Of a stretch of 34,882 nucleotides of DNA, positions 1 through 34,882 are shown in pieces. The position numbers and the translations under genes are program-made. Location: positions 1 through 34,882 of the forward strand of contig PKDT01000023.1 of the NCBI GenBank assembly GCA_002863085.1. The letters run 5' to 3'. A model generated the notes under the pieces. It searched no databases, was not told the origin of the DNA, and saw nothing but the letters and a program-made list of their open reading frames with translations. Within the stretch, counting starts at the first letter, position 1. Every line of letters starts with the position of its first letter. The stretch comes from Flavobacteriales bacterium. GTDB lineage: Bacteria > Bacteroidota > Bacteroidia > Flavobacteriales > TMED113.

Positions 1-3000
1 GGACCATTTCCATTCCACGTAAGCTCTGTTTCAGACATATCTAGAACGGGGCACCTTGTCCAGAGGTCCTGATTAGGAGTTAGCACTATGTCAACATTAT
101 TGAGATTATTTAAATCGGATTCTGACTTCCACTCCTTCCAAGCAAAGCCACCACCAATGGTGTCAATTGAATTTATTTCATTGGTAGTAGTTGAAGCAGA
201 AATATTTCCTCTATAATCAGTACTTACTAACTTATATGGAACCAATGCTTGATTTTCATGAACACCGTTAGGGTCTAAAGGAATATCACCAGATTCTAGT
301 GGAGTACCGTCTACAGCCAAATCACCAAAATCTTGATACTGGAAAAGTACTGCGTCGCTAGGAGTGAAGCTATTGTTACCAGACCTGACGTAGTCGAGGG
401 GTCTCATAAAAGGAGCAAATTGCCAAACATCATCAATATCAGGCACTGGAGCAATATAAAGTGACTCTTGTGCTGAACTATATTCATTACTTGATAATAA
501 GTCTGATAAATTATCTGAAGTTGTATCATCGTCCATAGCAGACCATATAATTTCACTGATTTGAGAGTTCGTGACGCTAAACCAACCATCACATGTAAGA
601 CAACCAAGATTATCAAGTTGACCAGACTCTAATGAAGGTATGTTTTGAAATTTAACTGCTAGTCCCCACTCAGGGATGATTTGCTGAGCATTGTCAGCAA
701 GAATATTTTGGGATGAAACAGAAACAGTATCGCCGTTTTCAATTTTAGATAAAGTCCATGATGAATTTAGGATATCCTCAGTGTCGGTATCTGTCATTCT
801 GAAAATGAATTCTGCATCGGGAACAGATAGTGGATCTACAACACTAATCATAGCAGGTGATGTATTTATTCTGTAACTAAGTGTATCAACTATATAATTT
901 TCAGCAATATTAGTCCTTGAATAATCAGTAAGCTCAAGAAAATTTCCACCATTACCGGATCCTGCTAAGCCGGTTTGGGATGGAATTGCCCCGTAAGAGG
1001 CGGTTGGAATGTCTCCAAAAGATTCAATCTTGTGTGGAATTACAGTGTAAATCTTAATGTTTTTTCGGCCAGCAAGGTATGGTTTTTTTTGACCAAGAAC
1101 ACTTGGTGAATATGGAGACGCGGATGTAAATGGGATTTCAGTTGCGTATGGTATAAACTCGTTGTATGCATAAGCTATAGCCATAAAATAATAAGGCTTG
1201 TTGTTTACTAGCCCTGGGTCACCCGAAGCGAACTTATCCTCTGTAATTAATATTGAATTTTCAATTCCGGAGTTTGACGCGCCTAAAGTCATATTCTGAG
1301 GAAGGTAAACATTTGGGCCAATACTTTCGTCAAGGGAGTAGTTTACAAGATTTGCTATTGGAGTTGAGTCTTCTGTTGGACTAAAAACAACTTGACCGTC
1401 AGGCGTTCGATAATTTTCAACATCACATTGATAAATCATAAATGCTTTGTCGGGATTATATAAATCATTAGATGTGACAGTAGCGTCTTTTAGTTGAAAA
1501 ACTTGATAACCCTCAAAAACATAATTCTTGGAAATCTCTAAGTTTTCAAAAACACCTGGTTCGCTTTCAACTAACACATCTGAAATAAAAGGGTCTTCTT
1601 CAACATACTGATTTGCAAAATTATTCGAGTTTTCAGAATTGGTGAGATTTAGAATAATTTTTTGATCTAGTTCTACAAAGTTAACATCAGGTGCGCTAGG
1701 GCCATCAATAACCTCAAAGCAAATATCAAAGAGAGTTTGGGCTTTATTATCAGCAATTTTCATAAGTTCGACAGATGCAAAATTATTTCCTTCCGAAGCA
1801 CGTGCCCAAACAACACCGGTGGTTATGTAATTAACTGCACCAGGTTCAAGAGTGAATGGACCAGCAGACTGTAAAAACCTTCTATCAGCAGGATCGTTTC
1901 CTGCAGTAATTTCTGTCCACTCGTCAGTAAATGATGGATCAGTATCACCAGGAAACATAAAATTACACTCCGGATTTGAAGATTCCCATCCAGTCCCTCC
2001 GTAAGTCATAGGTTGACCATTTTTCCAAATTCCTCTTAAATATCCATAATAATGAGTTGCATTTTCGGGATTACCGAAATCAGAAAAGTCGTTATTGTAA
2101 TAAACAAACTTTGACATAATAATTTGTTCGCCTGGCTCATCGATTTCGCCATCTTTGTCATTGTCTATTCCATCACCAATATCGGCTAATGGACCTCTAA
2201 AAAAGTCAACACCAATTGCTGGTGGTGGGTCGTCAGAATCGTAATTATATCCGGACGTTCCATCATCATCAGCGTCGCCATTGTAGCAATAGCCTAAACC
2301 AAGTCCAACATCGCAACCAACATAATCATCTTGATAATTTCCAAGATCAGGGTCTACCCATTGACCAAAATACGTATCATTAAGCACAGAGGATGAACGG
2401 TTAATAATTTTATAACTGTAAAAAGTCATATTATTTATCTCATCATTAGTGGTAAATCCAAAGGCTTGTGCCTGGATTTCAAGTCCAATTGCTGACTCAG
2501 AGCCAGTCTCTGTATGAATATTTCCATTATCATTAAATACCCACCACAAAGTTTGGTCTCCAAATAACACATCATCAGATTTACAGTCCTTATCGCCATT
2601 GAGATCATATCCAGGATAGTCAATTCCAACGGTGTATATACCGTCAGCGTTAACATCTTCATATGGAGCAAGATAGTCAAATGTGCCATCAACATCAACT
2701 CTACTAGCAGGCCAGTCTGTAATTGTTTGGGACTGTGTGTAATTAGGGTATGAAGTTGCTACATCACAACTTGGGTCAGCCAAGCAGTTGTTGTAGCCGA
2801 CATAATCTTCAACTTCTTGACGTGTAATAACATAATGTTTATCAAAGTCTGTACATAAATCTTGAGTTGTTGTACCATAGTCGTCACTTGCAACATCAGC
2901 ATTTAAGGGCCCGGGCCAAAAGTCATTACCATCCTGTCTGTATGTCATACCGGCAACCTTGAGATTTCCCTGATCGTCAAGACCTCCAATCCACAAAGCA

Positions 3001-3266
3001 CCTGCAAACATTGAGTGCTTTCCTCCACCATTAGGAATTTCATATTTTCCATTATCTAAGTCCCACCACATATCACCACCAGCTAGAATTGTAGTTCGAA
3101 CATTATTGATATTAAGTTCTGTTTGTGCAGTTGCAGCTAAGCATCCAGATGCTAACAATCTATAATTGTTGCTGTTAGTTTCACTAGGGTTTGGAATATT
3201 TTCTCTTCCATAAGAGGAAAAAAATACTAAAGACGTTATTAGTGTTGAAAGAAAAATGTTTTTCAT
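1..3266 (-). CDS. Large exported protein, C-terminus cut by window edge
   Basis: An open frame of 1088 codons runs from an ATG at 3266 off the left edge with no stop, so the C-terminus is missing. It begins with MKNIFLSTLITSLVFFSS, a signal-peptide-like start. About residues 30-485 are clearly paralogous to the protein at 10712-12811: both share GGDMWW, a YEIP motif, LWIGGLDDQ, MTYRQ, QWVDPDLGNY, MSKFVYYNND and RGIWKNGQPMTYGG. Acidic DxDxDG-type stretches suggest Ca2+ sites (inference). The rest (about 490-1088) is beta-rich in appearance, with a PYYFMAIAYAYN segment of the fibronectin-like kind common in large Bacteroidota surface proteins. The gene starts 3 nt after the TonB receptor stop, so the two are almost certainly cotranscribed. 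I expect a T9SS sorting domain beyond the edge but cannot see it. No catalytic motif was recognised; function unknown. Confidence 0.85.
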   Translation of the reverse strand, partial: MKNIFLSTLITSLVFFSSYGRENIPNPSETNSNNYRLLASGCLAATAQTELNINNVRTTILAGGDMWWDLDNGKYEIPNGGGKHSMFAGALWIGGLDDQGNLKVAGMTYRQDGNDFWPGPLNADVASDDYGTTTQDLCTDFDKHYVITRQEVEDYVGYNNCLADPSCDVATSYPNYTQSQTITDWPASRVDVDGTFDYLAPYEDVNADGIYTVGIDYPGYDLNGDKDCKSDDVLFGDQTLWWVFNDNGNIHTETGSESAIGLEIQAQAFGFTTNDEINNMTFYSYKIINRSSSVLNDTYFGQWVDPDLGNYQDDYVGCDVGLGLGYCYNGDADDDGTSGYNYDSDDPPPAIGVDFFRGPLADIGDGIDNDKDGEIDEPGEQIIMSKFVYYNNDFSDFGNPENATHYYGYLRGIWKNGQPMTYGGTGWESSNPECNFMFPGDTDPSFTDEWTEITAGNDPADRRFLQSAGPFTLEPGAVNYITTGVVWARASEGNNFASVELMKIADNKAQTLFDICFEVIDGPSAPDVNFVELDQKIILNLTNSENSNNFANQYVEEDPFISDVLVESEPGVFENLEISKNYVFEGYQVFQLKDATVTSNDLYNPDKAFMIYQCDVENYRTPDGQVVFSPTEDSTPIANLVNYSLDESIGPNVYLPQNMTLGASNSGIENSILITEDKFASGDPGLVNNKPYYFMAIAYAYNEFIPYATEIPFTSASPYSPSVLGQKKPYLAGRKNIKIYTVIPHKIESFGDIPTASYGAIPSQTGLAGSGNGGNFLELTDYSRTNIAENYIVDTLSYRINTSPAMISVVDPLSVPDAEFIFRMTDTDTEDILNSSWTLSKIENGDTVSVSSQNILADNAQQIIPEWGLAVKFQNIPSLESGQLDNLGCLTCDGWFSVTNSQISEIIWSAMDDDTTSDNLSDLLSSNEYSSAQESLYIAPVPDIDDVWQFAPFMRPLDYVRSGNNSFTPSDAVLFQYQDFGDLAVDGTPLESGDIPLDPNGVHENQALVPYKLVSTDYRGNISASTTTNEINSIDTIGGGFAWKEWKSESDLNNLNNVDIVLTPNQDLWTRCPVLDMSETELTWNGNG

Positions 3267-3269
3267 ATT

Positions 3270-6200
3270 TTAAAAGTTTACTTGCATTCCTAATTTTATT
3301 AATCTTGGACGAGTGTAGTTGTCCGGACTATTTACCTTTACATCATATTGGTCATAAAAAGCCATCGGATTTATTTGTTGTGATACATATTGCTGGCCTT
3401 CAGCAGACGATAAATAACCATCATCATCAGGGTTTCCAGTGTATCTGTATACACCCACAATATTATCAACATTGAATAAGTTTTCAACTTGTAGATATAC
3501 CTCCATATTTAACTTTCGGTTGTCATTTACAGAAAACTGAAAAGTCTTATCTAAACGGACATCAGTTCGAAATGTCCATGGTTTTCTGGCACCATTAACA
3601 CTGCCTTCTAAAACATCACGAGTATTGACCCCAAACATAGCTTGTGCTAAAATATTTGACTGTTGACTGTAGGGCGTGCCGGATCCAGCTGCAAATACAA
3701 AATTTGCACCAAAATTTTCTAAGATATTTTTTCCGAACAAAACAGGACCATCATAACGGTTACCAGAACCATATCTGTAATCTATATTAGCACTAATGTT
3801 ATGTCTTTGATCAAAGTCAAGAGGAAGGGTAGTCCTAAGATTTGGAAAACCATCATTAACTAGTTGTTGAGCAGTTGTGGCTGAAGAACCAGATCCATCA
3901 GCAAATTGCAAGGTATAATTGGCAGTTAAAGAAATATTATTAGTTCTTCTAAGGTCGTACCCAAATGAAAAACCCTTGACGTTTCCAAAATCAATGTTGT
4001 CAAAGTGAGAGTAAGTCATTGGATAGGCTTCTGTAACTCTTGATGCCTGAATCATATCACTAAGCTCTCTGTAAAAAGCAGAAAAAGTGATTGCAGAATA
4101 ACTTGTTAAAGCTTGAGTGAATCCAACCTCATAATCAGTAGTTTTTTCAGGCTTCAAATTGGGATTCTGGACCTCAAATGTGTTAGCTTCTAAAAATAAA
4201 TAATCGAAAGGGTTCATAATGTTGTTAGATGGAGGTCTTTGAGTTAGTATGTCATAATGAGCAAAAAACATCGCTTCATCTGAAATTGGAAAGTTGAATG
4301 AAATTCGGGGCATAACAGAAACAGAAGGGGTGTAATCTTCGAATGCATCACCGGTGAGACCTCTGTTGGGTTCAGACAAATGATCAGGATTTTGTAAAAA
4401 AGGAATAACTCCACTACCCAAAGATAATACCGACGGGTCGGTAACAGGTAAACCAGTTGCGTCGTACCAGTTATCACCATCTCTATATCCTGTAATTTGT
4501 GTCTGATCAGTGATTGAATTAGCATAAACAACAAAATCATCACCTATGTTTGAAGGGTGTGAAGGGTTGTTTGGATCAACTGTAGGATTGAGACTTGCAC
4601 TAACCTCAGAAGCAGTTCTTGTAGGATATAATGAATATTTGTCTTTTAGTACCTCCTGGTTTGCATCATACCTATCGATTCTTAAACCAACATTGAAGAC
4701 GATATCATCAAAAGCGAATTTGTCTTGTATGTAAGCAGCTGAGTATATTGGTTCAAAAGGAGAAATCCTCCTGGTATAATCACCATTAGAATCTTTATCA
4801 TTTAGAAAATCATCGAAAGAAACTCTTTCATTCACTTCCAATCCTGTATGATCATACCCATAGTAAAATAAATTTAAATCATCACCCTGTAATAATTCGT
4901 CAGCAGCAAACATTCCAATAGAAAATGTACTTGGATCATATTGATCAATGAATACTTCATCATTTACGCTTAGACCAAGTTGATCCCTGAGGTTTTTACC
5001 AAATGTTGTGTAGTTTTCATTATCTTCACTAACATCATAAAATGTAGAAAAAATTAGTACATCTTCGTCAAAATCCCACTGAACTTGGTCATCAACATAA
5101 TACTGAGGATTGGTCAAGTGTTGATTTGCTAATTGTCTACCAACTTGCCATAAAGCTGGTGTATACACACGATAGTATTTTTCTTTTTTCTTTTCGTATT
5201 CAAATCCAAATAAAATTGAATGATCACCTACATCTGCAGAAGCTGAACCAGAAAATGTTTGCTTTTGCTCAGAATAATCATATGAAAAATAATTTGGATA
5301 GCCCGAATTCCACCATAATCCATAGACATCAGGTGGTGAATCTCCGTTTAAAAGGGCGCTAAATTGAACATGTTCTTGGGTTGGGTTTTGTCCTTCATCC
5401 ATGTAGGAGTGAAAAAAATCATAATAATCTTGTGTGTAGTTAGACAAAAGCGGGTTATCATCACTCGCCTCAAAATCTAAAGTGACATGTTCTTGTAAAA
5501 GTACTCCGGTTTGGGTTTCTTGTTGCCACAGTAAGTTACCATTAGCATCAACTAACTGATCACCATTCGAGTCTAACTGGGGAATTTTGTTTCCATTTGC
5601 ATCCAAAACATAAACGTCATAAGAGTCCCAGAAAAAAGGTGCAGTATTAGTAAATGTCGTGTCATCGATTGAGGGTGTAAACTTTCCAACATAACCATAG
5701 TTAAAGTAGTTTTTTCCGTGATTTGGATTTTCCAACTTTGCATTATACGCAGAATAATCAGCTTGTAAGGTATAAAAAACATTTTTTACTGAACTTTGCG
5801 TGTCATCTCCGCTTAGCTTATGTTGGATTCTGGCATAAAAGTTATAATTGTCACGAATATATTGTCGATTGTTATCGAAATTAAGTAGTTGCTTTCTCCA
5901 CCACAGTGAACTTCCCATGTCTATGTGATGAGAAAAATTTCCACCCAGTGTGAAGTTTATATCATCACTAATTCTAGCGTCAAGCTTTCCTTGTAATTGC
6001 AACTTCTCATCACTTAAATTTTTCTTTACATCTTCAATAGACCAATCGTCAGAAGTAAGTTGTTCTGCAGAATTGAGAGAATAACTTGCTGCGTAATTTC
6101 CATATGATGGGGTTCCAACAAATTCCAAGGGGTGTTCTTGGATTTCATTCAAAATGTTAGATTTGAGTGCGGGTACACCTATTGCAGATGGATCAGGGTC

Positions 6201-7043
6201 TAGTTTATGATTGTATTCACCTGTAATGAGATAACCAAGAATTGGAGTTTTATCGGCATCCTTTTTTCTCCAAATGGGTCCCGAAAGGTTAAAGCCAATT
6301 AAATTATGATTGTATGGATCTGTTAATTGAGATGATGCGAGCTCAAATCCACCTTTAGTTATCCTTGATGGCCCACGAGTTGTAATACTAATTATACCAC
6401 CGGTTGCGTCTCCGTATTGTGCAGGTAATCCGCCAGTTACGACAGTCATTTGATCAATGGCAGACTGAGGGAGAACGTTGGTATTTCCTGTAATCTTTAT
6501 TCCATCTATGTAGTATGAGGTAGCATTACTCCTTGAACCCCTAACATTTATAGAGCCCTCAGTGTCGGATTGATAAATTCCAGCTGTTGTAGCAGCAACA
6601 TTTTGAACATTTCTTGTTGGCAATGAGGTAATCTGTTCCGCGGTTTTAGTCGAACCAGATTTATCCGCATCAATGAGAGGGACATCATATTCAATTACTT
6701 GAACTTCTGTAAGCTCATTGGTACTAACTTTTAGCTCATAGTCGGTAAAAGTGATTTTGTTTGGAGATATTAGTACATTATTTTGAATAATTGTATTGTA
6801 ACCAATAAATGAAACTTCAACTGTGTATGTTCCAGGGGTTATTGGCTTTATTGTAAAATCACCATCAAAATCAGAGGCTCCACCAATAACTGTTGCACCA
6901 TCTAGTTTGACTACAATGTTAGCCATTGGGATTGTCTCTCCAGTAGAAGCATCAGTAACTTTTCCTTTAAGAGTACCGCTCTGGGAAAAAGCTCCGTATG
7001 AAGTGAAAATTAACAGAAGAAATAAAAAAGTATTTTTGCTCAT
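3270..7043 (-). CDS. TonB-dependent outer-membrane receptor, carboxypeptidase-regulatory N-domain
   Basis: A 1257-residue outer-membrane transporter driven by TonB. The ATG at 7043 is preferred because it starts a clean signal peptide (MSKNTFLFLLLIF...GAFS, cleavage before Q); an in-frame ATG at 7091 would add 16 residues in front. Residues ~22-106 form a carboxypeptidase-D regulatory-like beta-sandwich (LKGKVTDASTGETIPMANI, then SDFDGDF). Residues ~125-226 are the plug, with INVRG, YYIDGIKI and GGIISITTRG. The rest is the barrel, ending in the terminal Phe (LGMQVNF) typical of outer-membrane barrels. No SusD gene follows; the downstream partner is instead the large exported protein at 1-3266. 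Substrate unknown. The SusC-like N-domain alone does not prove glycan uptake. Confidence 0.93.
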   Translation of the reverse strand: MSKNTFLFLLLIFTSYGAFSQSGTLKGKVTDASTGETIPMANIVVKLDGATVIGGASDFDGDFTIKPITPGTYTVEVSFIGYNTIIQNNVLISPNKITFTDYELKVSTNELTEVQVIEYDVPLIDADKSGSTKTAEQITSLPTRNVQNVAATTAGIYQSDTEGSINVRGSRSNATSYYIDGIKITGNTNVLPQSAIDQMTVVTGGLPAQYGDATGGIISITTRGPSRITKGGFELASSQLTDPYNHNLIGFNLSGPIWRKKDADKTPILGYLITGEYNHKLDPDPSAIGVPALKSNILNEIQEHPLEFVGTPSYGNYAASYSLNSAEQLTSDDWSIEDVKKNLSDEKLQLQGKLDARISDDINFTLGGNFSHHIDMGSSLWWRKQLLNFDNNRQYIRDNYNFYARIQHKLSGDDTQSSVKNVFYTLQADYSAYNAKLENPNHGKNYFNYGYVGKFTPSIDDTTFTNTAPFFWDSYDVYVLDANGNKIPQLDSNGDQLVDANGNLLWQQETQTGVLLQEHVTLDFEASDDNPLLSNYTQDYYDFFHSYMDEGQNPTQEHVQFSALLNGDSPPDVYGLWWNSGYPNYFSYDYSEQKQTFSGSASADVGDHSILFGFEYEKKKEKYYRVYTPALWQVGRQLANQHLTNPQYYVDDQVQWDFDEDVLIFSTFYDVSEDNENYTTFGKNLRDQLGLSVNDEVFIDQYDPSTFSIGMFAADELLQGDDLNLFYYGYDHTGLEVNERVSFDDFLNDKDSNGDYTRRISPFEPIYSAAYIQDKFAFDDIVFNVGLRIDRYDANQEVLKDKYSLYPTRTASEVSASLNPTVDPNNPSHPSNIGDDFVVYANSITDQTQITGYRDGDNWYDATGLPVTDPSVLSLGSGVIPFLQNPDHLSEPNRGLTGDAFEDYTPSVSVMPRISFNFPISDEAMFFAHYDILTQRPPSNNIMNPFDYLFLEANTFEVQNPNLKPEKTTDYEVGFTQALTSYSAITFSAFYRELSDMIQASRVTEAYPMTYSHFDNIDFGNVKGFSFGYDLRRTNNISLTANYTLQFADGSGSSATTAQQLVNDGFPNLRTTLPLDFDQRHNISANIDYRYGSGNRYDGPVLFGKNILENFGANFVFAAGSGTPYSQQSNILAQAMFGVNTRDVLEGSVNGARKPWTFRTDVRLDKTFQFSVNDNRKLNMEVYLQVENLFNVDNIVGVYRYTGNPDDDGYLSSAEGQQYVSQQINPMAFYDQYDVKVNSPDNYTRPRLIKLGMQVNF

Positions 7044-7154
7044 ATAACTATGTTTAGTTAGTAAAAATTTCTTTAATTTTTGTCGCATCAAATATATAAG
7101 AAAATAACAGATTTACAAAATATAATTAATCTTAATAATTATATTTACTAACAA

Positions 7155-7574
7155 ATGAATTATTTTATTAAAATTTTATGTTTTTTAAGTATTTTAATAG
7201 TTGGCTGTGGTAATGACTATAATTTCCCTAACGTCAATGTTAATGAGTCTGTTCCAATTACAATGCCACAATACAACAACGTTTATGGCAACCTATGGGG
7301 CTATGAATTTATAAATGGTGGACTTGGCGGAATAATTATAGTGCAAGGTCTAGATAACGAATTTTTTGCATACGATCGAGCCTGCACTTATGAAGCTAAT
7401 GAAAATTGCATATTACAATCTGAAAGTACCAATAATCCAATTTTGATTTGTAGCGAATGTTGTGAATCAAAATTTTTAATAACTGACGGCTCCGTTTCTC
7501 AGGGACCAGCAAATCAACCACTTAAAAAATATAATACATATTTTGACGGAGAAATACTGTATATAACAAATTAA
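7155..7574 (+). CDS. Small Cys-rich lipoprotein, Rieske-fold-like
   Basis: A 139-residue predicted lipoprotein: a short hydrophobic signal followed by lipobox LIVGC with the lipidated Cys at 18. The rest resembles the Rieske-like small lipoproteins found in Bacteroidota: GGIIIVQGLDNEFFAYDRAC, then CSECCESKFLITDGS and GPANQPLKKY. In a true Rieske protein the cluster ligands are C-x-H and C-x2-H. Here the corresponding positions read C77-T-Y79 and C99-S-E-C102-C103, so both His are missing and no classical [2Fe-2S] Rieske cluster is expected. C85 adds another Cys. Function unknown. It is divergent from the TonB receptor and convergent with ahcY (3 nt apart). A TATATTTA element at 7140-7147 lies only 7 nt before the ATG. 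Confidence 0.75.
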   Translation: MNYFIKILCFLSILIVGCGNDYNFPNVNVNESVPITMPQYNNVYGNLWGYEFINGGLGGIIIVQGLDNEFFAYDRACTYEANENCILQSESTNNPILICSECCESKFLITDGSVSQGPANQPLKKYNTYFDGEILYITN

Positions 7575-10711: not shown

Positions 10712-12811
10712 ATGAAAAAATTTATATTAGTGATGTTTCTATCATCATTTGGAACTACAACAGTATATCCAAAAGATAACATCAATCAAAACAATTCAAC
10801 AAATAAACAACTCGCAATTCTTGGAGGAGGATGTTTAGATCCAACATCTGAAGCTGAACTTGATATTGGAAATGTTCGAGCAACTATTTTAGGTGGTGGA
10901 GACATGTGGTGGAATTTAACTGAGGCGCGATATGAAATACCAAAAAATGAAGGTGTTCATTCATTGTTTGCTGGATCGTTATGGATTGGGGGTCTGGACG
11001 ATCAAAATAATTTAAAAATTGCAGCAATGACATATCGTCAAACCGGTAGTGATTTTTACCCTGGACCATTAAATGCTGACTCCAATAGTCCACTTTTTGG
11101 ATCAACTTCATTTGATGATTGTAACGATTATAATCAACATTGGGTAATTTCAAAAAATGAAGTCGAAGCATATGTAACATATTTAGAATGCACTAACAAC
11201 CCTGACTGCGACACAGATGTTTCGTTCCCTAACTATGTTGTTCCGGATGTTATTACAAACTGGCCTTCCAGTCACTATTCATTTGATGGCACTAATGAAT
11301 ACCTGGCTCCGTTTATTGACGTAGATGGCGACGGAATATATAACAACTCTGATTATCCAGCTTATGATCTAGATGCGACCGGCAACTGTTCAAGTGAAGA
11401 CTATCTTTATGGTGACCAAAGTATTTGGTGGGTATTTAACGACGCTGGAAACTTTCATGGAGAGACAGGCGGCACACAGATTGGATTAGAAATTCAAGCT
11501 CAAGCTTTTGCATATAAAACTACTGATGTTTTATCAGATATGACTTTTTACAATTACAAGATTATTAACAGATCTAATGAGACTCTCAATGAGACATATT
11601 TTGGACAATGGGTTGACCCGGACCTTGGTAACTATTTAGATGATTATGTTGGATGTGATGTCAATTTAGGTTTGGGATATTGTTACAATGGTGACGATGA
11701 TGATGAAGGAATGCAAGGTAGTGCTGGCTATGGTTTAAATCCACCAGCCATTGGTGTAGACTTTTTCAAAGGTCCTTTAGCAGACGAAGCAGATGGGATT
11801 GATAATGACAGAGATGGTGTAATAGATGAACCTGGAGAGCAAATCATAATGTCAAAATTTGTTTATTACAATAATGATGAAACAGACTACGGTAATCCTG
11901 TGACTGCGGAACAATACTATGGATACTTAAGAGGCATATGGAAAAATGGACAACCTATGACATATGGCGGTAATGGCTGGGATGTTAATAACCCTGAGTG
12001 CAACTTTATGTTTCCCGGAGACTCGGATCCCAACTTTGAAATAAGTTGGGATGAGACTTCAGCTGGCAATATTCCAAGTGATAGAAGATTCTTGCAATCT
12101 GCAGGTCCATTCACTTTAGAGCCTGGGGCAGTTAACTACATCACTGTTGGGGCTGTTTGGGCAAGAGGAAATAATGGACCATTGTCATCTATCGAAGCTT
12201 TAAAAGATGCAGACATGTTAGCTCAAGACTTATTTGATAATTGCTTTGACATTAACTACTTTGTTTTTGGTTGCACATGTGAACTCGCTAATAATTTTGA
12301 TCCAAATTCAAATGCCGACGATGGTTCTTGTATCTATCCTGATGATGTTTATATTGACTGTGATGGAAGTTGTATTCTTGGGGACTCTGATGGTGACAGC
12401 TTTTGTGACGGAATTGACAATTGTCCCAATATCAGTAACTTTAGTCAATCAGATAGTGATGATGATGGTATTGGTAATTCATGTGACAATTGTATAGCAA
12501 TCTTTAATCCAGATCAAATTGATAGTGATGGAGACGGAATTGGAAATGAGTGTGATGAATCCCCACTCATGATTAATGAAAATAACTTAAAATTTAAAAT
12601 CTATCCAAACCCTACCCAAGACCAAATTAATATTTCCTGCAATGAGCAAATTAAATTCATATATGTGTTTGATAACCTAGGTAAAAGAATTGAGATACTT
12701 AGAAATGATAAATCATTTAATATTAGTAATTTACCTAAAGGAAGTTATGAACTCATTGTAGGTACTGAGGTTGGTAATTTGTATAAAGAATCATTTATTG
12801 TAAATAAATAA
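10712..12811 (+). CDS. T9SS-exported protein with GCTD module, Ca-type repeats and type A sorting domain
   Basis: A 699-residue exported protein. Order: signal peptide (MKKFILVMFLSSFGTT...); residues ~40-500, a large domain paralogous to the N-terminus of the protein at 1-3266; one Cys-bounded module starting GCTCELANNFDP at ~519-540; acidic thrombospondin type 3-like repeats ~548-615 (DSDGD, DNCPN, SDSDDDGIGN, CDNC), expected to bind Ca2+; and a type A T9SS sorting domain ~627-699 with IYPNP, VFDNLGK and a GSYEL strand. It should therefore cross the outer membrane through T9SS, with the sorting domain removed or anchored. Unlike its paralogue, it has no TonB receptor beside it. Function of the N-domain unknown. 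Convergent with ribF, 7 nt apart. Confidence 0.93.
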   Translation: MKKFILVMFLSSFGTTTVYPKDNINQNNSTNKQLAILGGGCLDPTSEAELDIGNVRATILGGGDMWWNLTEARYEIPKNEGVHSLFAGSLWIGGLDDQNNLKIAAMTYRQTGSDFYPGPLNADSNSPLFGSTSFDDCNDYNQHWVISKNEVEAYVTYLECTNNPDCDTDVSFPNYVVPDVITNWPSSHYSFDGTNEYLAPFIDVDGDGIYNNSDYPAYDLDATGNCSSEDYLYGDQSIWWVFNDAGNFHGETGGTQIGLEIQAQAFAYKTTDVLSDMTFYNYKIINRSNETLNETYFGQWVDPDLGNYLDDYVGCDVNLGLGYCYNGDDDDEGMQGSAGYGLNPPAIGVDFFKGPLADEADGIDNDRDGVIDEPGEQIIMSKFVYYNNDETDYGNPVTAEQYYGYLRGIWKNGQPMTYGGNGWDVNNPECNFMFPGDSDPNFEISWDETSAGNIPSDRRFLQSAGPFTLEPGAVNYITVGAVWARGNNGPLSSIEALKDADMLAQDLFDNCFDINYFVFGCTCELANNFDPNSNADDGSCIYPDDVYIDCDGSCILGDSDGDSFCDGIDNCPNISNFSQSDSDDDGIGNSCDNCIAIFNPDQIDSDGDGIGNECDESPLMINENNLKFKIYPNPTQDQINISCNEQIKFIYVFDNLGKRIEILRNDKSFNISNLPKGSYELIVGTEVGNLYKESFIVNK

Positions 12812-28252: not shown

Positions 28253-31200
28253 ATGAAGAAGTTAAATCTTTTCGTGGCTCTAATTGTCACAACATTTGGG
28301 ATCCAATTTTCATTCACTCAGCCTGGATTTTATGAGGTTGATGCTGGAGCATTTTACTACTCCCCCAACACTCTAGAAATTGAAGTTGGCTCAACAGTTA
28401 CATGGACTAATGTTGGAGGTTTGCACAATGTAAACTTTCAAACAAATTCAATCACAGGTGTTGACTTTGAAAACCCCGAATCATTCGAACTGCAGGCTGT
28501 TTATTCAAACTCCGAAACTCCCACTTTGATTGGTTCTTGGACCTTTAATGTAGAAGGTACTTACACATATGACTGTTCTATTGGATCTCATGCCTCACAA
28601 GGAATGATTGGAACAATTATTGTAACCCCTGAAGGTGAGTACCCTGGCTGTATGGACTCTTCTGCATGCAATTATTTGAATTATGCGAATATTGATGATG
28701 GTTCCTGTCTATATAATAACTTATGTTGTGATAATGTCTTAGAAGTTGAATGTAATGCATGTAACGCATGTCAAACACCCGAGGAATGGTGTTTAAACAA
28801 TCCGGGGTTCGATGGATGTGATGCATATGACGTTGTTGGATGTATGGACGATGGGTTACAAAGCTGGTCACCATTTCCAGGAAATGCTGCTGATAACTAT
28901 GCTGAGGGTGCCAACACTCAATGCGAAAATTGTTGTGCTTACTGGGGTTGTGGTAATCCAGACAATACACTAATGCTTGTTGGAACTTTCATGGATTTAA
29001 GTGGTGAAAATGGATGGAGTGGTACATCGATGACCGTTTTTAATATTTGGGAAGACTCTCAAATTTATGACATTATGGATACAGTATTTTATTTTTCACC
29101 TTCATTCGAAATAATGTATGAACTACCTCCTGTTATAACTGAGATAGGTGATTTAGATGGAGATGGATATGACGATGCTGATTGTTGTGGTCTAATTGAT
29201 GAAAGTGAATTTCTTGATGACGGAAGCATTAATCCAAATTTTGGTGGTCCATTGCCTGATGGACAAGTAAATCACGATGACTGCTTAGAATGTCCTTTAA
29301 ATGACGATTTTGTTGGCGAGTTGGGTTATGTGGTGAACTTTTGTGCTCCCGATGACTTATTAAACGGATGTTATCAAATTGTTGTTGACGAAGGTGACCC
29401 ACAACAAGTTGCCTGGGAAATTCAAAACGCTGATATTTCAGTTTTTGCTTTATCAGGGTCTTCATATTTTGATTCAACTAGTGGTGCGGCATGCAGCAAC
29501 TCTGAAACTTTTGGTTTCTCTGACGTAAAATTCACATCCAATAGTGTCAATTTTGATCAAGATACTGGATTGCTGTCATTTGGTGTAACAAATTCTGGTA
29601 CTGAAACCACTGTAAATTCCGAAGGAGTTGAAACTGCGGGTACTACATGGATATTAATTGATGGTTTTGCTGAAGTTTCTGATTCTCCTTCAAATATAAC
29701 AGGATTTTCAGAAATTCTTAATGAATATGTAACAAGTGACGGATACTATTTGGGAACTAATTATGAATTTACATATGATATTTCTGAATTTACATCTGTT
29801 AATAATATTGGTCCTGGCGACCACAGTATAACTATCTGGCTAAACGGTGGGTCTAGTCAACCGTTAGGGGTGAATCCTGAGTTTGGTGAAGAAAACTTTG
29901 AAAATAATTACATTACTATTCAGTTCAATATTCCTGAAATTTTTGGATGCCTAGACCCTTGGGCTTCAAATTACAACCCCAACGCTAACTCTGACAACAA
30001 CGGAAACGAAGAATGCCTGTATGTTTGTGGCGATACCGACGGAGATGGTATTGTTGATAATGAAAACTACCAATACTATAATATCTCTGTCGATGGTGGG
30101 AATTTTCAAGCTGAAGTTGGATGGACTATACAAACAATTGACGGTTTTGAGTACCTATCAGGAGGAGCACCCTATAATAGTAACGATTTTTCTGAATTTG
30201 GTTTGTGCCTAGCACCAAATTGTTATGAAATCGTTATGACTGATAATTTCGGTGACGGATGGAACGGAAATACCATTGAAATTGGAAATGAGATTGAATT
30301 CACATTAGAAACTGGTACGTCTGGAACTGCTCTTTTCGAAGTTGGAGGTGGAAGTTGTGGAGAATTTATTGGTTGTACAGACTCTAACGCAACTAATTAC
30401 AATGAAAACGCAATACAGTCTGACGGCAGTTGTTTATATGACTGTTCATCGTTTACAGATGCTAATGGCAATTCATATGAGTCACTAGAAATAAATCTTG
30501 ATGGTGGAATTTTTCAAGGAGAAATATCTTGGGAAATATTTGATTCAAACAATGTGCTTGTTCTTGAAGGTCAGGCTCCGTTCAACGATGTAACATGTCT
30601 TCCTCAAGGTTGTTACACAGTTTCAATGCAAGACTCTTTTGGTGATGGATGGAACGGAAATGTTTTAACACTAGAGTCTGGAAGTGGTTATACATGGAAT
30701 TTTGTTGGCCCAATGAACGACAATGCACAAGTTGAAAATATCGCAATTGGCGAACCAAGTCAGTGTGGTATATACTTTGGTTGTACTGACGAACAAGCTG
30801 ACAACTATGATGAAATTAATAATATCGATGACGGTTCCTGTACATATTCATGTTTAGATGGAGGTACAGCTGTTACAATTAGTTGTGACGGAGGTTCATG
30901 GCAAAGTGAAGTTGGTTGGACTATTTTTGACGAAAACGGTATCATTATTCTATCAGGTGGTGCTCCTTTTGTCGAAGAAGGTATTTGTCTTATTGACGGC
31001 TGTTACACGGTTGAAATGACAGATTCTTTTGGAGACGGTTGGAGTGGTAATGAACTATCAATTACAGGCGATGGTATTAATATAGAATTTGAAGCAACAG
31101 GTAGTAGTGAAACTGCCCCATTTGGAATTAATAATGATGAATGTGTAACTCTTGGATGTACTGATGTAGAGGCTGAAAACTATAATTCAGATGCTAACTT

Positions 31201-34200
31201 AGATGACGGTTCATGTAATTATGATTGTGATTCATGGCTTGATACAAGTGAATTGTATAGCTGTTATTATTACGTATGGGTATTAGATTACTCTGTAGAC
31301 TATATGGAAGGTCTTGGATATGATTGCACATGTGTCATTGAACCAACACCTGGATGTACTGATCCAAATGCGGATAACTATGATGATTTAGCAAATCAAA
31401 ATGACGGTTCATGTATATATACATGCGATGAAGAAGATGGTGAATTTCCAACACTAATTACTTGTGATGGTGGTACATGGCAAAATGAAGTATCATGGCA
31501 AATTTATGACGAACTTGGAAATTTAGTTGCATCAGGAGGTGCACCATATTCAAATGAAGTATGTCTGTTGGATAATGTTTGTTACACAATCGAAATGCAA
31601 GACTCATATGGTGATGGATGGAATGGCAACACACTTGACTTTGGAGGAACATCCATAAGTCTATATGCTGGTTCAAATGGAAATGACTCGTATAATTGTT
31701 CAAGTGAATGTAACTTTGTAGAAATTCCTGTATCAGTTGTTAATGGACAAGGAACTTCCTTTGGCTTTTCAATAACTAACAGCGAAAATGATATTGTTGT
31801 AAGTGGTGGAAATAATTTCTCAGGCTTCCTATGTCTTGATCCAAACGATTGTTATGACATTAACTTGGCAAGTGCAAACGGTGGTGGAAATCAAGGTGCC
31901 ACCTTGGTCGTGGGAGAAGATGAATTTGGATGGAACGGTTTTAGCTCATGGTATGCTTATATTTATCAAGCTGTTGGAGGAAGTTGTCCTGTTTATGGAT
32001 GTACTGACACAACAGCTGACAATTATGATGAAAATGCAACTATCAATGAAAGTGCTCCTAATGACTCAAGTAATCCTTGTTTGTACTACGGATGTACTGA
32101 CGCTAATGCTTCCAACTTTGACTCTGATGCTAATTTTGAGGACGGTACATGTGTATATCTTTGTGAATCAGGACTTGATTCATATTATATTTCATGTGAT
32201 GGTGGTTCTTTACAATATCAAATTTCTTGGCAAATAACAGATTCGGAAGCTAATATTGTTGCAGAAGGTGACGCACCTGACAATACAGGTGTTTGTCTTG
32301 AACCAGGTTGCTACACTATTAACATGTTTGATACTGGTGGTGATGGTTGGAACGGAAACTCGCTAATTGTTGGAGACATGACTTTTGAGTTTAACGAAGG
32401 ATACGAGTCAGTTGCCACATTCGCTGCTGGAGTTGATGCAGAAGATTGTGGTATTTTCTTTGGATGTACTGACCCTGCGGCTGTAAACTTTGACCCATCC
32501 AGTAATGTGGATGATAATTCGTGTTTTTATCCTTGTGCCGAACTTGGCTGGGAGTCTGTACTTATTGAGACTTCATCAGGTACATATCCTTATGAAATTG
32601 CTTGGAATTTAGAAGATGAAAATGGGGACACAATATTTAATGCCGGAGAACTAGGTGGTGGGACTGATTTTTCTAATCCTGGCATCGTTGACACTTGGTT
32701 GTGTTTAGATCCAAATGGCTGCTATACTTTAAATATGTCTGACACATATGGAGATGGTTGGAATGGCGCTGCCATAACAATAATCAATCAAGATGGAAAT
32801 GAAAATGATATATCTCTCTTTGCAGGATTTTCTGGAAGCACACAATATGGTACATGTATTTTTGAATGTGATTTTGATACATATGACGTTACTGTAAATA
32901 ATGGTTTTGGAACAGACTTTGGGTTTATTATTTCTGACATCGATGGAAATACTGTTGTTTCAGGTGGTAATAATTTCAGCGACTTAGGATGTTTAGACTT
33001 AGAAAATGGGTGTTACACAATATCATTATCCAGTTCTAACGGAGGTGGTTTTGGCTCAGCTTCTTTAGCTATTGGAGATTATGAATTTGATTCAAACGAT
33101 GGAACTGGCGGTTATTGGAGTTCTGTAATTACAAATGGACTTGGTAACGGTTGTCCAACACCAGGATGTACCAGTATTGAAGCATGTAATTACAATGAAA
33201 ATGCTACATCTGACGACGGTTCGTGCTGGTATGCACAAGATTGTGAAAATTATTGTGAAACTGAAAACTTCGATAATATAGAGGATGGAGAAGGGGTATC
33301 ATCAAGCACATATTTTGAAACATGGTCTGGTGAGACTACTGAAGAAGCATTGATTAGCAATGGTGCTGCTATAATAACAAATACTACAGATATTATTTCA
33401 TCAACTCCAATATTTCAAGATGGTTCATATAATATTTCGTTTACGATGGGTATTTTTGATGGTGGAGATGGGTATTTCAGTATTGGTAATAACAACAGCT
33501 CGGATAACTTTCAATGGGAAGTCGAAGTTGTTTTTGGAAGTGATGGACTGGGCTACACAACACAGTCATACGAAACTTGGAACTACGATTTTGGGAATGT
33601 TGATGTAAGTGCATCTATTGACTTGGATAATAACACAGCGTCAATTGTGGTAAACGACCAGTGTGTTGAAACATGGAATTGGTTTGGCGATTTAGGTTCA
33701 GTCAATTTTTGGGGAGGTGGATCGGATTTTGATTATTCTATAGATAACTTTGAAATTTGTGCCGGAGAGACCTCCATTTGCTCTCCCGGTTGTACTGATC
33801 CAAATGCATTTAACTATGATGAGGAAGCAACTAATGATGACGGATCCTGCATAGAAGTTAGTTTAGGCTGCACTGATGAAGATGCATGGAACTTTGATCC
33901 GTTAGCTAACACTAACGATGGTTCCTGTATCAACCAATGTAGTGATTTAGGACTATCTGAAATAAACCTATTTATGTATACAAATGGTGTTGTTGCAGGT
34001 TGGTACGGGAGTACAATTTCTGTTGGTGATGAGGAATTTTCACTGGGAAATCTATATCAGGAGACCGTTTCTTTCTGTGGCGATTTGAACGACTGTACAG
34101 AAGTTAGTGCCGGAGGTGGTATTCAACAATACAATATTGGCTGGTCTATAAGCTCTGATGGAGTTGATTTATTATCGGGAAGTGCCCCGTTCTTAGGTGA

Positions 34201-34882
34201 ATTAGGTGACTGCTCTATTTTAGGTTGTACAGATTTAAGTGCATGTAACTATGACATGTCATCAACTGATGATGATGGATCGTGTACATATCCAAGTGAG
34301 TTTTTTGACTGTAACGGTATTTGTTATGATGACGACAACGATGGTGTTTGTAATAATGAAGAAATTTCCGGTTGCACTGATCCTAGTGCTTTCAACTATA
34401 ACAATTTAGCTACTGACGAAGATGGTTCGTGTTATTTCGAGATTTTAGGATGTACAGATAATGTGGCGTCAAATTTTAACCCACAGGCAACTGCGAACAA
34501 CTCAGAAGCTACTAACTGTGATTATGGTCCATGGGGCGAAGTACCTACAACAGATTGTAATATGACATTGTTAATTCAAAATGGTTCTGTTATTACAATT
34601 GAAGGCGAAACTGTTACAGAAGCATGGATTGGTGTTACTAATTCAAATGGAGATGTTGTTGGCTCTGTTTATTGGACTGGAGATGTTAACTCAATTGCAG
34701 TATGGGGTCAAGAAGGTGATATTCCTGGAATGGCTGTTGGTGAAACATTGAATTTCATCGTTTCTACAACTGATGGTGATATTTTGGGTAATGCAACTTA
34801 CAGTTTTGGTGATGATACATACTCATGTCAGGGGCTAAGTGGTGTTATCGGAATTGACTTTGTTTCAACATTTTCTCAGTCA
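28253..34882 (+). CDS. Giant exported multimodular protein with N-terminal cupredoxin, C-terminus cut by window edge
   Basis: An open frame of 2210 codons from ATG 28253 to the window end with no stop. Order: signal peptide (MKKLNLFVALIVTTFGIQFSFTQ); cupredoxin domain (~26-124); a first GCMD module (~132-152) and a Cys-rich region to ~245; a region to ~560 with a DLDGDGYDDADCC segment and beta-rich stretches; then, from ~565, GC(T/L)D modules alternating with GDGWNGN modules; a jelly-roll-like domain at 33239-33778; and a GCTD-dense end. The mature protein is very acidic and rich in Asn, Gly, Ser, Thr and Cys. Export through T9SS is expected, but the sorting domain would be beyond the edge. 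The module is shared with the 699-aa protein and the trypsin. Function unknown; adhesion or an extracellular copper-binding structure are possibilities only. Confidence 0.9.
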   Translation, partial: MKKLNLFVALIVTTFGIQFSFTQPGFYEVDAGAFYYSPNTLEIEVGSTVTWTNVGGLHNVNFQTNSITGVDFENPESFELQAVYSNSETPTLIGSWTFNVEGTYTYDCSIGSHASQGMIGTIIVTPEGEYPGCMDSSACNYLNYANIDDGSCLYNNLCCDNVLEVECNACNACQTPEEWCLNNPGFDGCDAYDVVGCMDDGLQSWSPFPGNAADNYAEGANTQCENCCAYWGCGNPDNTLMLVGTFMDLSGENGWSGTSMTVFNIWEDSQIYDIMDTVFYFSPSFEIMYELPPVITEIGDLDGDGYDDADCCGLIDESEFLDDGSINPNFGGPLPDGQVNHDDCLECPLNDDFVGELGYVVNFCAPDDLLNGCYQIVVDEGDPQQVAWEIQNADISVFALSGSSYFDSTSGAACSNSETFGFSDVKFTSNSVNFDQDTGLLSFGVTNSGTETTVNSEGVETAGTTWILIDGFAEVSDSPSNITGFSEILNEYVTSDGYYLGTNYEFTYDISEFTSVNNIGPGDHSITIWLNGGSSQPLGVNPEFGEENFENNYITIQFNIPEIFGCLDPWASNYNPNANSDNNGNEECLYVCGDTDGDGIVDNENYQYYNISVDGGNFQAEVGWTIQTIDGFEYLSGGAPYNSNDFSEFGLCLAPNCYEIVMTDNFGDGWNGNTIEIGNEIEFTLETGTSGTALFEVGGGSCGEFIGCTDSNATNYNENAIQSDGSCLYDCSSFTDANGNSYESLEINLDGGIFQGEISWEIFDSNNVLVLEGQAPFNDVTCLPQGCYTVSMQDSFGDGWNGNVLTLESGSGYTWNFVGPMNDNAQVENIAIGEPSQCGIYFGCTDEQADNYDEINNIDDGSCTYSCLDGGTAVTISCDGGSWQSEVGWTIFDENGIIILSGGAPFVEEGICLIDGCYTVEMTDSFGDGWSGNELSITGDGINIEFEATGSSETAPFGINNDECVTLGCTDVEAENYNSDANLDDGSCNYDCDSWLDTSELYSCYYYVWVLDYSVDYMEGLGYDCTCVIEPTPGCTDPNADNYDDLANQNDGSCIYTCDEEDGEFPTLITCDGGTWQNEVSWQIYDELGNLVASGGAPYSNEVCLLDNVCYTIEMQDSYGDGWNGNTLDFGGTSISLYAGSNGNDSYNCSSECNFVEIPVSVVNGQGTSFGFSITNSENDIVVSGGNNFSGFLCLDPNDCYDINLASANGGGNQGATLVVGEDEFGWNGFSSWYAYIYQAVGGSCPVYGCTDTTADNYDENATINESAPNDSSNPCLYYGCTDANASNFDSDANFEDGTCVYLCESGLDSYYISCDGGSLQYQISWQITDSEANIVAEGDAPDNTGVCLEPGCYTINMFDTGGDGWNGNSLIVGDMTFEFNEGYESVATFAAGVDAEDCGIFFGCTDPAAVNFDPSSNVDDNSCFYPCAELGWESVLIETSSGTYPYEIAWNLEDENGDTIFNAGELGGGTDFSNPGIVDTWLCLDPNGCYTLNMSDTYGDGWNGAAITIINQDGNENDISLFAGFSGSTQYGTCIFECDFDTYDVTVNNGFGTDFGFIISDIDGNTVVSGGNNFSDLGCLDLENGCYTISLSSSNGGGFGSASLAIGDYEFDSNDGTGGYWSSVITNGLGNGCPTPGCTSIEACNYNENATSDDGSCWYAQDCENYCETENFDNIEDGEGVSSSTYFETWSGETTEEALISNGAAIITNTTDIISSTPIFQDGSYNISFTMGIFDGGDGYFSIGNNNSSDNFQWEVEVVFGSDGLGYTTQSYETWNYDFGNVDVSASIDLDNNTASIVVNDQCVETWNWFGDLGSVNFWGGGSDFDYSIDNFEICAGETSICSPGCTDPNAFNYDEEATNDDGSCIEVSLGCTDEDAWNFDPLANTNDGSCINQCSDLGLSEINLFMYTNGVVAGWYGSTISVGDEEFSLGNLYQETVSFCGDLNDCTEVSAGGGIQQYNIGWSISSDGVDLLSGSAPFLGELGDCSILGCTDLSACNYDMSSTDDDGSCTYPSEFFDCNGICYDDDNDGVCNNEEISGCTDPSAFNYNNLATDEDGSCYFEILGCTDNVASNFNPQATANNSEATNCDYGPWGEVPTTDCNMTLLIQNGSVITIEGETVTEAWIGVTNSNGDVVGSVYWTGDVNSIAVWGQEGDIPGMAVGETLNFIVSTTDGDILGNATYSFGDDTYSCQGLSGVIGIDFVSTFSQS
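28328..28624 (+). other. Cupredoxin (type I copper) domain inside the giant protein
   Basis: Residues 26-124 have the plastocyanin/azurin pattern: YYSPNTLEIEVGSTVTWTN, then GLHNV with H58, a TYTYDC strand with C108, and SHASQGMIG with H113 and M118. The loop is C-x4-H-x4-M. That spacing is the one in rusticyanin (Cys138, His143, Met148), not the C-x2-H-x4-M of plastocyanin or the C-x4-H-x3-M of azurin. All four type I copper ligands appear present. Confidence 0.85.
30063..33163 (+). repeat. Eight ~85-100-residue GDGWNGN-type modules between GCTD modules
   Basis: Pattern: CDGG-x-WQ-x-E-V-x-W-x-I, then SGGAPY, CL, CYT-x-x-M-x-DS and GDGWNGN followed by two strands. Approximate spans: 30063-30370, 30476-30778, 30866-31153, 31448-31703, 31710-31996, 32177-32461, 32550-32857, 32868-33163. 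The fifth and eighth belong to a variant with VSGGNNF and NGGG in place of SGGAPY and GDGWNGN. A broken ninth copy lies at 33953-34222. Likely beta-sandwich domains; family not recognised. Confidence 0.85.
33239..33778 (+). other. Jelly-roll-like domain inserted in the repeat region of the giant protein
   Basis: About 180 residues between two GCTD modules with a different character: ENFDNIEDGEG, FETWSGETTEE, then YNISFTMGIFDGGDGYFSI and a closing YSIDNFEIC. The final strand DNFEI is common at the end of concanavalin/LamG-like and carbohydrate-binding jelly rolls. Assignment is by pattern only. Confidence 0.5.

Follow-up and report, generated by a model that had tools for sequence, protein, structure and literature searches.

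The stretch of DNA analyzed here is the 34,882-bp contig PKDT01000023.1 of a Flavobacteriales bacterium (GenBank assembly GCA_002863085.1), referred to as the window, which is one entire contig (C10) of a 1.35-Mb metagenome-assembled genome (MAG) that is 96% complete. At its left end lie genes for a TonB-dependent receptor (TBDR) and a giant exported protein, and in related genomes these two are followed by a gene for a barrel protein of the PorV/PorQ family. We consider it fairly likely that this triad is a TonB uptake unit, in which the giant protein, secreted through the type IX secretion system (T9SS) and docked on its cognate barrel, would capture a ligand for the receptor. The two genes in the window are as follows.

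3270..7043, minus strand: TBDR of 1257 amino acids (aa), with a signal peptide, a CarboxypepD_reg-like domain, a plug and a barrel
3..3266, minus strand: giant exported protein, residues 1-1088, with a signal peptide, a super-beta-sandwich N-domain at about residues 42-519 and further beta-rich parts; open at the left edge

The receptor gene

The open reading frame (ORF) of the receptor spans 3270-7091 on the minus strand, and its start was set at 7043, an ATG with a signal peptide; the signal peptides of both the receptor and the giant were judged by eye. A reading made from the sequence only had claimed that a giant exported protein begins 3 nt after the stop of the receptor and that no SusD follows, and the ORFs confirmed this arrangement, the TAA of the receptor being separated by AAT from the ATG of the giant. 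Both CarbopepD_reg_2 (58.2 bits, cut-off 32.2, E 9e-16) and the TonB plug (47.5 bits, cut-off 23.9, E 3e-12) were found over cut-off in the receptor, which is a TBDR with a carboxypeptidase-regulatory-like domain.

The receptor had also been called SusC-like. It shares the N-terminal domain, but it does not belong to the family: it had no match at E 0.001 to the SusC/RagA models TIGR04056 and TIGR04057, whereas the SusC of the same genome, located beside SusD, reached 698.8 bits in this test (cut-off 368) and 61.9 bits for the signature. The identification of the receptor as SusC was therefore rejected. Nor did any of nine other triad receptors exceed the SusC/RagA cut-off of 368. The view that the giant stands in the place of SusD is correct in that no SusD follows, but it overstated the surprise, because the receptor has no SusC/RagA family match. 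Among solved structures, the receptor profile matched siderophore and colicin receptors best, chiefly through the plug region, and plug similarity tells little about the ligand. A gene for a 139-aa protein without a Pfam match (7155-7574) is divergent from the receptor gene, and a related gene is found there in most of the relatives' loci.

Conservation of the triad

Adjacent receptor, giant and barrel genes on one strand were found in 29 of 30 loci of relatives (from 60 genomes, of which 33 matched), in 70 of the 80 named GTDB loci (chosen as the best among 554 confirmed) and in 38 of 40 loci from the phylum (out of 217 matching genomes, mostly high-scoring). A TBDR is located directly upstream of the giant in 30/30, 74/80 and 39/40 of these loci, respectively, so that the conservation check proposed for the pair came out in its favor, and a barrel is located directly downstream in 71 of the 80 named loci. 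The proposed unit of receptor and exported protein is thus conserved but was incomplete, the PorV/PorQ-family barrel and the T9SS C-terminal domain (CTD) being located beyond the contig edge. Median gaps within the triads are 19-42 nt before the giant and 20-36 nt after it.

In the 30th locus of the relatives (L057) the frame of the giant is split, with the barrel after it. Among the ten incomplete named loci, four (L077, L099, L111 and L132) touch a contig end and one (L093) is broken into several frames; the other five are considered below. Six of the 40 phylum loci are from the same class and 34 from other classes; L188 meets a contig end and L224 has no triad. Many Bacteroidia have a conserved giant of approximately 1270-1550 aa, and none of the members scanned reached a curated cut-off of Pfam or NCBIfam. 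Identity to the window protein is 41-75% among 67 aligned named giants and 75% in a relative from the same GTDB family. The alignments comprised 67 of 77 giants plus that of the window (A2), 62 of 67 stretches, omitting L077, L087, L103, L112 and L131 (A3), 60 of 66 receptors plus that of the window (A4), and 45 of 69 barrels plus the one on contig C8 (A5). In two other-class genomes the triad is followed by a gene for a multihaem-cytochrome-like TPR protein (L189, 1492-3726; L203, 10885-13086).

Probable continuation of the giant and the third gene on contig C8

Because the gene of the giant leaves the contig, the third member and the CTD were hidden from a reading of the window. The giant matched just three places in the genome: its own gene, a gene for a 699-aa protein related to its N-domain, and one end of contig C8. 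The last of these agrees with window positions 1-153 in 132 of 153 bases (86%, an imperfect match) and continues as an open frame of 410 aa, approximately 360 residues of which lie past the overlap, followed by a PorV-family gene, greA and HIT. The join of C8 and C10 is supported because greA and HIT also follow complete triads in relatives (29/29) and in 57 of the 70 named triads; among the remaining 13, four have greA only, four reach the contig end and five differ. Based on this sequence comparison, the last approximately 360 residues of the giant, with a T9SS-type CTD, most likely lie on C8. As the overlap is inexact, strain mixing within the MAG is likely. A SusD gene just beyond the left edge, which the sequence-only reading had allowed for, is ruled out if the join is right, because the sole SusD_RagB match of the genome is on contig C42, beside SusC; none was found next to the window receptor on the left flank, as read on C8.

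The barrel protein encoded after the giant on C8 scored 143 bits against the PorV_fam model NF033709 (cut-off 90) and stayed below the cut-offs of the equivalogs PorV (58.4 of 250 bits), PorQ (77.5 of 220) and PorV2 (54.7 of 325), and its best solved relative is PorV (PDB 6h3i, 3e-18). The third gene thus encodes a member of the PorV/PorQ family that is neither PorV nor PorQ proper.

The CTD and probable export by the T9SS

Against NCBIfam, the C8 piece of the giant was matched best by PorZ (4.3e-9), followed by the type A sorting domain (5.8e-4) and PorU (6.2e-4), all below cut-off. Its scores against PorZ (35.4 of 260 bits) and PorU (17.5 of 420 bits) came from the C-terminal part alone, and a full-length match to either protein was not reached by the piece. 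In a model of the 553-residue C-terminal half of a related giant (L072; pLDDT 73.5), the last approximately 100 residues form a seven-strand sandwich. PorZ (5m11, 3.3e-5) was its best Foldseek match in the PDB, and the first 20 matches included PorU, the translocon complexes with RemZ and NucA (chains of 75 residues, taken as CTDs) and the CTD of RgpB, interleaved with DUF3244, fibronectin type III (FnIII) and other Ig-like domains. As modeled, the giant is a T9SS substrate in the broad sense, with a C-terminal beta-sandwich of predicted CTD fold.

The genome encodes SprA (2657.9 bits, contig C14), adjacent porU and porV and a PorP/SprF gene, these being on C8 like the barrel, and PorZ. The triad was also considered as a stand-in for PorZ; this was rejected, as the genome has a PorZ of its own. 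In the sample of 392 phylum genomes, matches to the giant profile occurred in 217 and to SprA in 311: both were found in 217 genomes, the giant only in 0, SprA only in 94 and neither in 81, a table that ignores relatedness and counts weak giant matches (approximately E 1e-4 to 1e-8, for example families f3 and f6) that may be to the CTD only. The giant is probably exported by the T9SS.

In 9 of 20 loci (L238, L247-L249, L252-L254, L256 and L257), PorZ is followed by a gene of approximately 240 aa, recO-like by eye, and then by a TBDR related to that of the window genome; here a second T9SS surface protein stands beside such a receptor.

The N-domain of the giant

The AlphaFold2 model of the window giant had a mean pLDDT of 77.7, with approximately 90 over most of residues 42-519, the part that the fold tests mainly covered. 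In the model, this N-domain can be superposed on the beta-sandwich at the N-terminus of dextran dextrinase, cellodextrin phosphorylase, a GH116 beta-glucosidase and a GH65 enzyme (N-domains of the GH94/GH65/GH116 set; best Z 18.7 over 252 residues at 3.2 A), and the first twelve Foldseek matches had E values of 2e-4 to 9e-4, in fold lists that are compatible with other families too. The N-domain is thus predicted to have the beta-sandwich fold of glycosidase and phosphorylase N-domains. No helical-barrel catalytic domain of the GH94/GH65/GH116 type was found past residue 519, where DSSP of the model gave mostly strands and coil with scattered helices. Conserved Asp-rich loops, metal-binding-like by eye, are carried by the N-domain, which had been described as shared within the window and does recur there:

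10712..12811, plus strand: 699-aa protein with the N-domain of the giant (63% identity to residues 5-519) and an ordinary type A T9SS domain at its end

No receptor or PorV-family gene was found beside this protein. In G003, G006, G009 and G011, four further genomes from the same GTDB family, its distance to the giant is approximately 7-11 kb. At the other end of the window (28253-34882), a plastocyanin-like copper domain stands at the start of an exported protein that is at least 2210 aa long and runs past the right edge of the contig.

Multiple triads in genomes outside Bacteroidia

Three single-contig genomes from outside Bacteroidia (G351, G085 and G240) carry the module in many copies, and a giant-type CTD is encoded directly upstream of 23 of their 36 PorV-family barrels. 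The 36 barrels were obtained from 44 PorV-profile rows after eight were dropped as further stretches of counted genes, one of which (G351:3041647) is in a different frame and could represent a gene of its own; for the giant CTD, C-terminal rows alone were used. Receptor, CTD protein and barrel stood in a row at 17 of 20 fetched places, the exceptions being L259 and L265, with extra frames between receptor and CTD protein, and L272, with tandem CTD proteins and no receptor in view. An additional triad, with the receptor directly in front, was found at L298. In a tandem array at L301 (2536-18275), four giants are encoded together with a single receptor and a single PorV-family barrel.

The distance matrices of the three members agree across the 17 triads (Spearman 0.66, 0.56 and 0.74; 0 of 2000 permutations as high), and within the eight triads of G351 57, 5 and 12 of 2000 permutations were as high. 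The three members of paralogous triads diverge together.

Gene context and distribution of SusD

Genes for polysaccharide degradation adjoin at least 4 of the 11 other-class triads with scanned flanks, in G240 and G351. These are GH88, GH28, pectic acid lyase and pectinesterase (L277/L293); GH53 with a T9SS tail and aldose 1-epimerase (L276/L292); GH16, GH3, and GH5 with CBM6 and a T9SS tail (L268/L285); and chondroitinase B with a heparinase-II/III-like gene (L298/L295). The polymers concerned are of the pectin, galactan, beta-glucan and uronan classes. The flank table holds the 25 commonest families, and 4/11 is hence a lower bound; of 129 flanking proteins 106 were selected and 62 run against Pfam, the 44 of G085, many from antisense frames, being omitted. 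The suggestion that the substrate is something other than glycans finds no support in the copies of readable context, at least four of which have enzymes of this kind beside them, nor in the glycosidase/phosphorylase-like fold of the N-domain.

SusD was counted with one model, SusD_RagB (PF07980). It had no match in 11 of 20 other-class triad genomes and one to seven matches in the remaining nine; G351 had none, and the single match of G240 is far from its carbohydrate-linked triads. Five Bacteroidia genomes with the triad had 4-62 matches. In the part of a survey that deals with carbohydrate gene clusters (PMC10576277), susCD is described as scarce in those of Ignavibacteriales and absent from those of Ca. 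Kapabacteria, groups with which our other-class genomes are not equated. Another paper (PMC5831590) describes a Bacteroidales genome from the rumen that has no SusC/SusD loci and in which the CAZymes are linked to the T9SS.

Proposed mechanism and the evidence against it

In the proposed mechanism, the receptor, the giant and the barrel would be exported by Sec, and the T9SS, through SprA, would then carry the giant through the outer membrane. The PorZ/PorU-like CTD of the giant would escape cleavage by PorU and dock on the adjacent PorV-family barrel, as in PorU-PorV and PorZ-PorQ, thereby holding the large N-domain over the receptor. The N-domain may capture the ligand, for which a glycan or a polymer resembling one is the likeliest candidate, and TonB energy would pull it through the receptor. 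The triad would do the job of SusD via another route of export and anchoring. An uncleaved, barrel-bound CTD is suggested by the CTD similarity and the gene pairing, by analogy with PorU and PorZ, and contact among the three proteins would follow the same plan. In a review (PMC10202324), the CTD of PorU is stated to stay on PorV and that of PorZ on PorQ, and cognate barrels of the PorV type are proposed to shield CTDs from cleavage.

Several observations weigh against this interpretation. The join of C8 and C10 rests on the 86% overlap and gene order, and the CTD on C8 is below the type A cut-offs (TIGR04183, 19.8 of 23 bits; Por_Secre_tail, 16.8 of 27 bits). Just two Foldseek matches of the L072 C-terminal half were below E 0.001, one of them not a T9SS protein, and the fold match of the N-domain shows no function. 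Partial similarity to SusC/RagA below cut-off (43-87 bits) was seen in seven of the nine other triad receptors, and none in two. Thirteen of the 36 barrels have no CTD gene, and joint divergence is weak within the seven triads of G085 (70, 317 and 225 of 2000 permutations as high). No giant match was found in 27 of 60 relatives and 175 of 392 phylum genomes. No carbohydrate gene was found among the 12 scanned neighbors of the window copy, which are part of its neighbors, and others, read by eye, are housekeeping genes. Finally, five named loci (L087, L103, L112, L131 and L142) have a giant with no receptor in front. For two of them, L103 and L142, the same genomes also contain a triad (L089 and L130), which makes them second copies; the receptor-less giants may represent an additional use of the giant or disrupted loci.

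Alternative explanations

The ligand may instead be an iron or haem complex, a peptide or a vitamin, with the giant as its surface binder and the carbohydrate context elsewhere as a separate specialization. We regard this as unlikely. The siderophore and colicin receptors among the best solved relatives and the Asp-rich loops of the N-domain would agree with it, and the strong conservation of the Bacteroidia copy, with greA and HIT after it, would be compatible with a general nutrient; but plug similarity is uninformative on the ligand, the N-domain fold is that of glycosidase and phosphorylase N-domains, and at least 4 of 11 other-class triads stand beside polysaccharide enzymes.

Slightly less probable again is a role in envelope or secretion machinery, with the giant as a PorZ-like component of the T9SS or of outer-membrane assembly and the receptor barrel as a channel or anchor. 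The CTD is closest to PorZ and PorU, the barrel is closest to PorQ and PorV, canonical porU-porV and the PorP/SprF gene share contig C8, and the giant was seen solely with SprA; a barrel, BamG, that anchors a surface protein over BamA is also described in part of one paper (PMC12611786). However, canonical PorU, PorV and PorZ are already present in this genome, 94 genomes of the 392 have SprA without a giant match, and several copies per genome and the enzyme context fit uptake better. That the three genes are merely co-transcribed and functionally apart, the giant being a plain surface adhesin or enzyme, is very improbable: giants without a receptor in front (5/80 named loci) and the solitary 699-aa relative would agree with it, but the genes remain adjacent in different classes of the phylum and in paralogous triads, whose members diverge together.

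Comparison with known systems

An uptake unit of receptor, giant and barrel resembles SusC/SusD (RagA/RagB) in having a TonB receptor with a CarboxypepD_reg-like N-domain and the gene of a surface partner directly after it, and also in occurring in multiple copies in other classes, some beside polysaccharide enzymes. Unlike in SusC/SusD, the receptor misses TIGR04056/TIGR04057, and the partner is a protein with a predicted T9SS CTD and its own PorV-family barrel rather than a SusD lipoprotein. With PorU-PorV and PorZ-PorQ of the T9SS attachment complex, the triad shares a surface protein of similar CTD paired to a PorV/PorQ-family barrel, and porU and porV are adjacent in the window genome too. 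It differs in that no peptidase domain was found in the giant, a TonB receptor is the third partner, and the barrel is below the PorV and PorQ equivalog cut-offs, with canonical PorU, PorV and PorZ present besides. On the evidence of context, the triad would work like SusCD, but it is no member of SusCD, and it is not PorU/PorZ either.

Two further systems have a similar plan. Type B CTD proteins of F. johnsoniae use cognate PorP/SprF shuttles, according to the section of one study concerned with them (PMC12618676), and there too a secreted surface protein has a dedicated barrel gene linked to its own gene; the triad differs in its PorV/PorQ barrel family, its PorZ/PorU-like CTD and the receptor in the operon. 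In the BamG-BamH canopy of the Bacteroidota BAM complex, as outlined in part of the paper on it, a FadL-type barrel anchors the surface protein BamH over the neighboring barrel BamA, but there the surface protein is a lipoprotein and the neighboring barrel an insertase, and the likeness drawn is one of plan. A search of open-license papers found none on the triad.

Implications

SusCD is the standard example of an uptake unit in Bacteroidota, and the triad is a testable candidate for the lineages in which susCD is scarce or absent. The chances appear to us evenly balanced that a TBDR, a T9SS-exported CTD protein and its cognate PorV-family barrel constitute a second general outer-membrane capture-uptake system of Bacteroidota, built on the T9SS and not on lipoproteins, which replaces SusCD in polysaccharide loci outside Bacteroidia. 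The triad provides a functional hypothesis for a conserved giant protein without a curated family match. If the hypothesis is true, the T9SS would be tied to nutrient import, and paralogues of the PorV family would gain a role as dedicated surface anchors.

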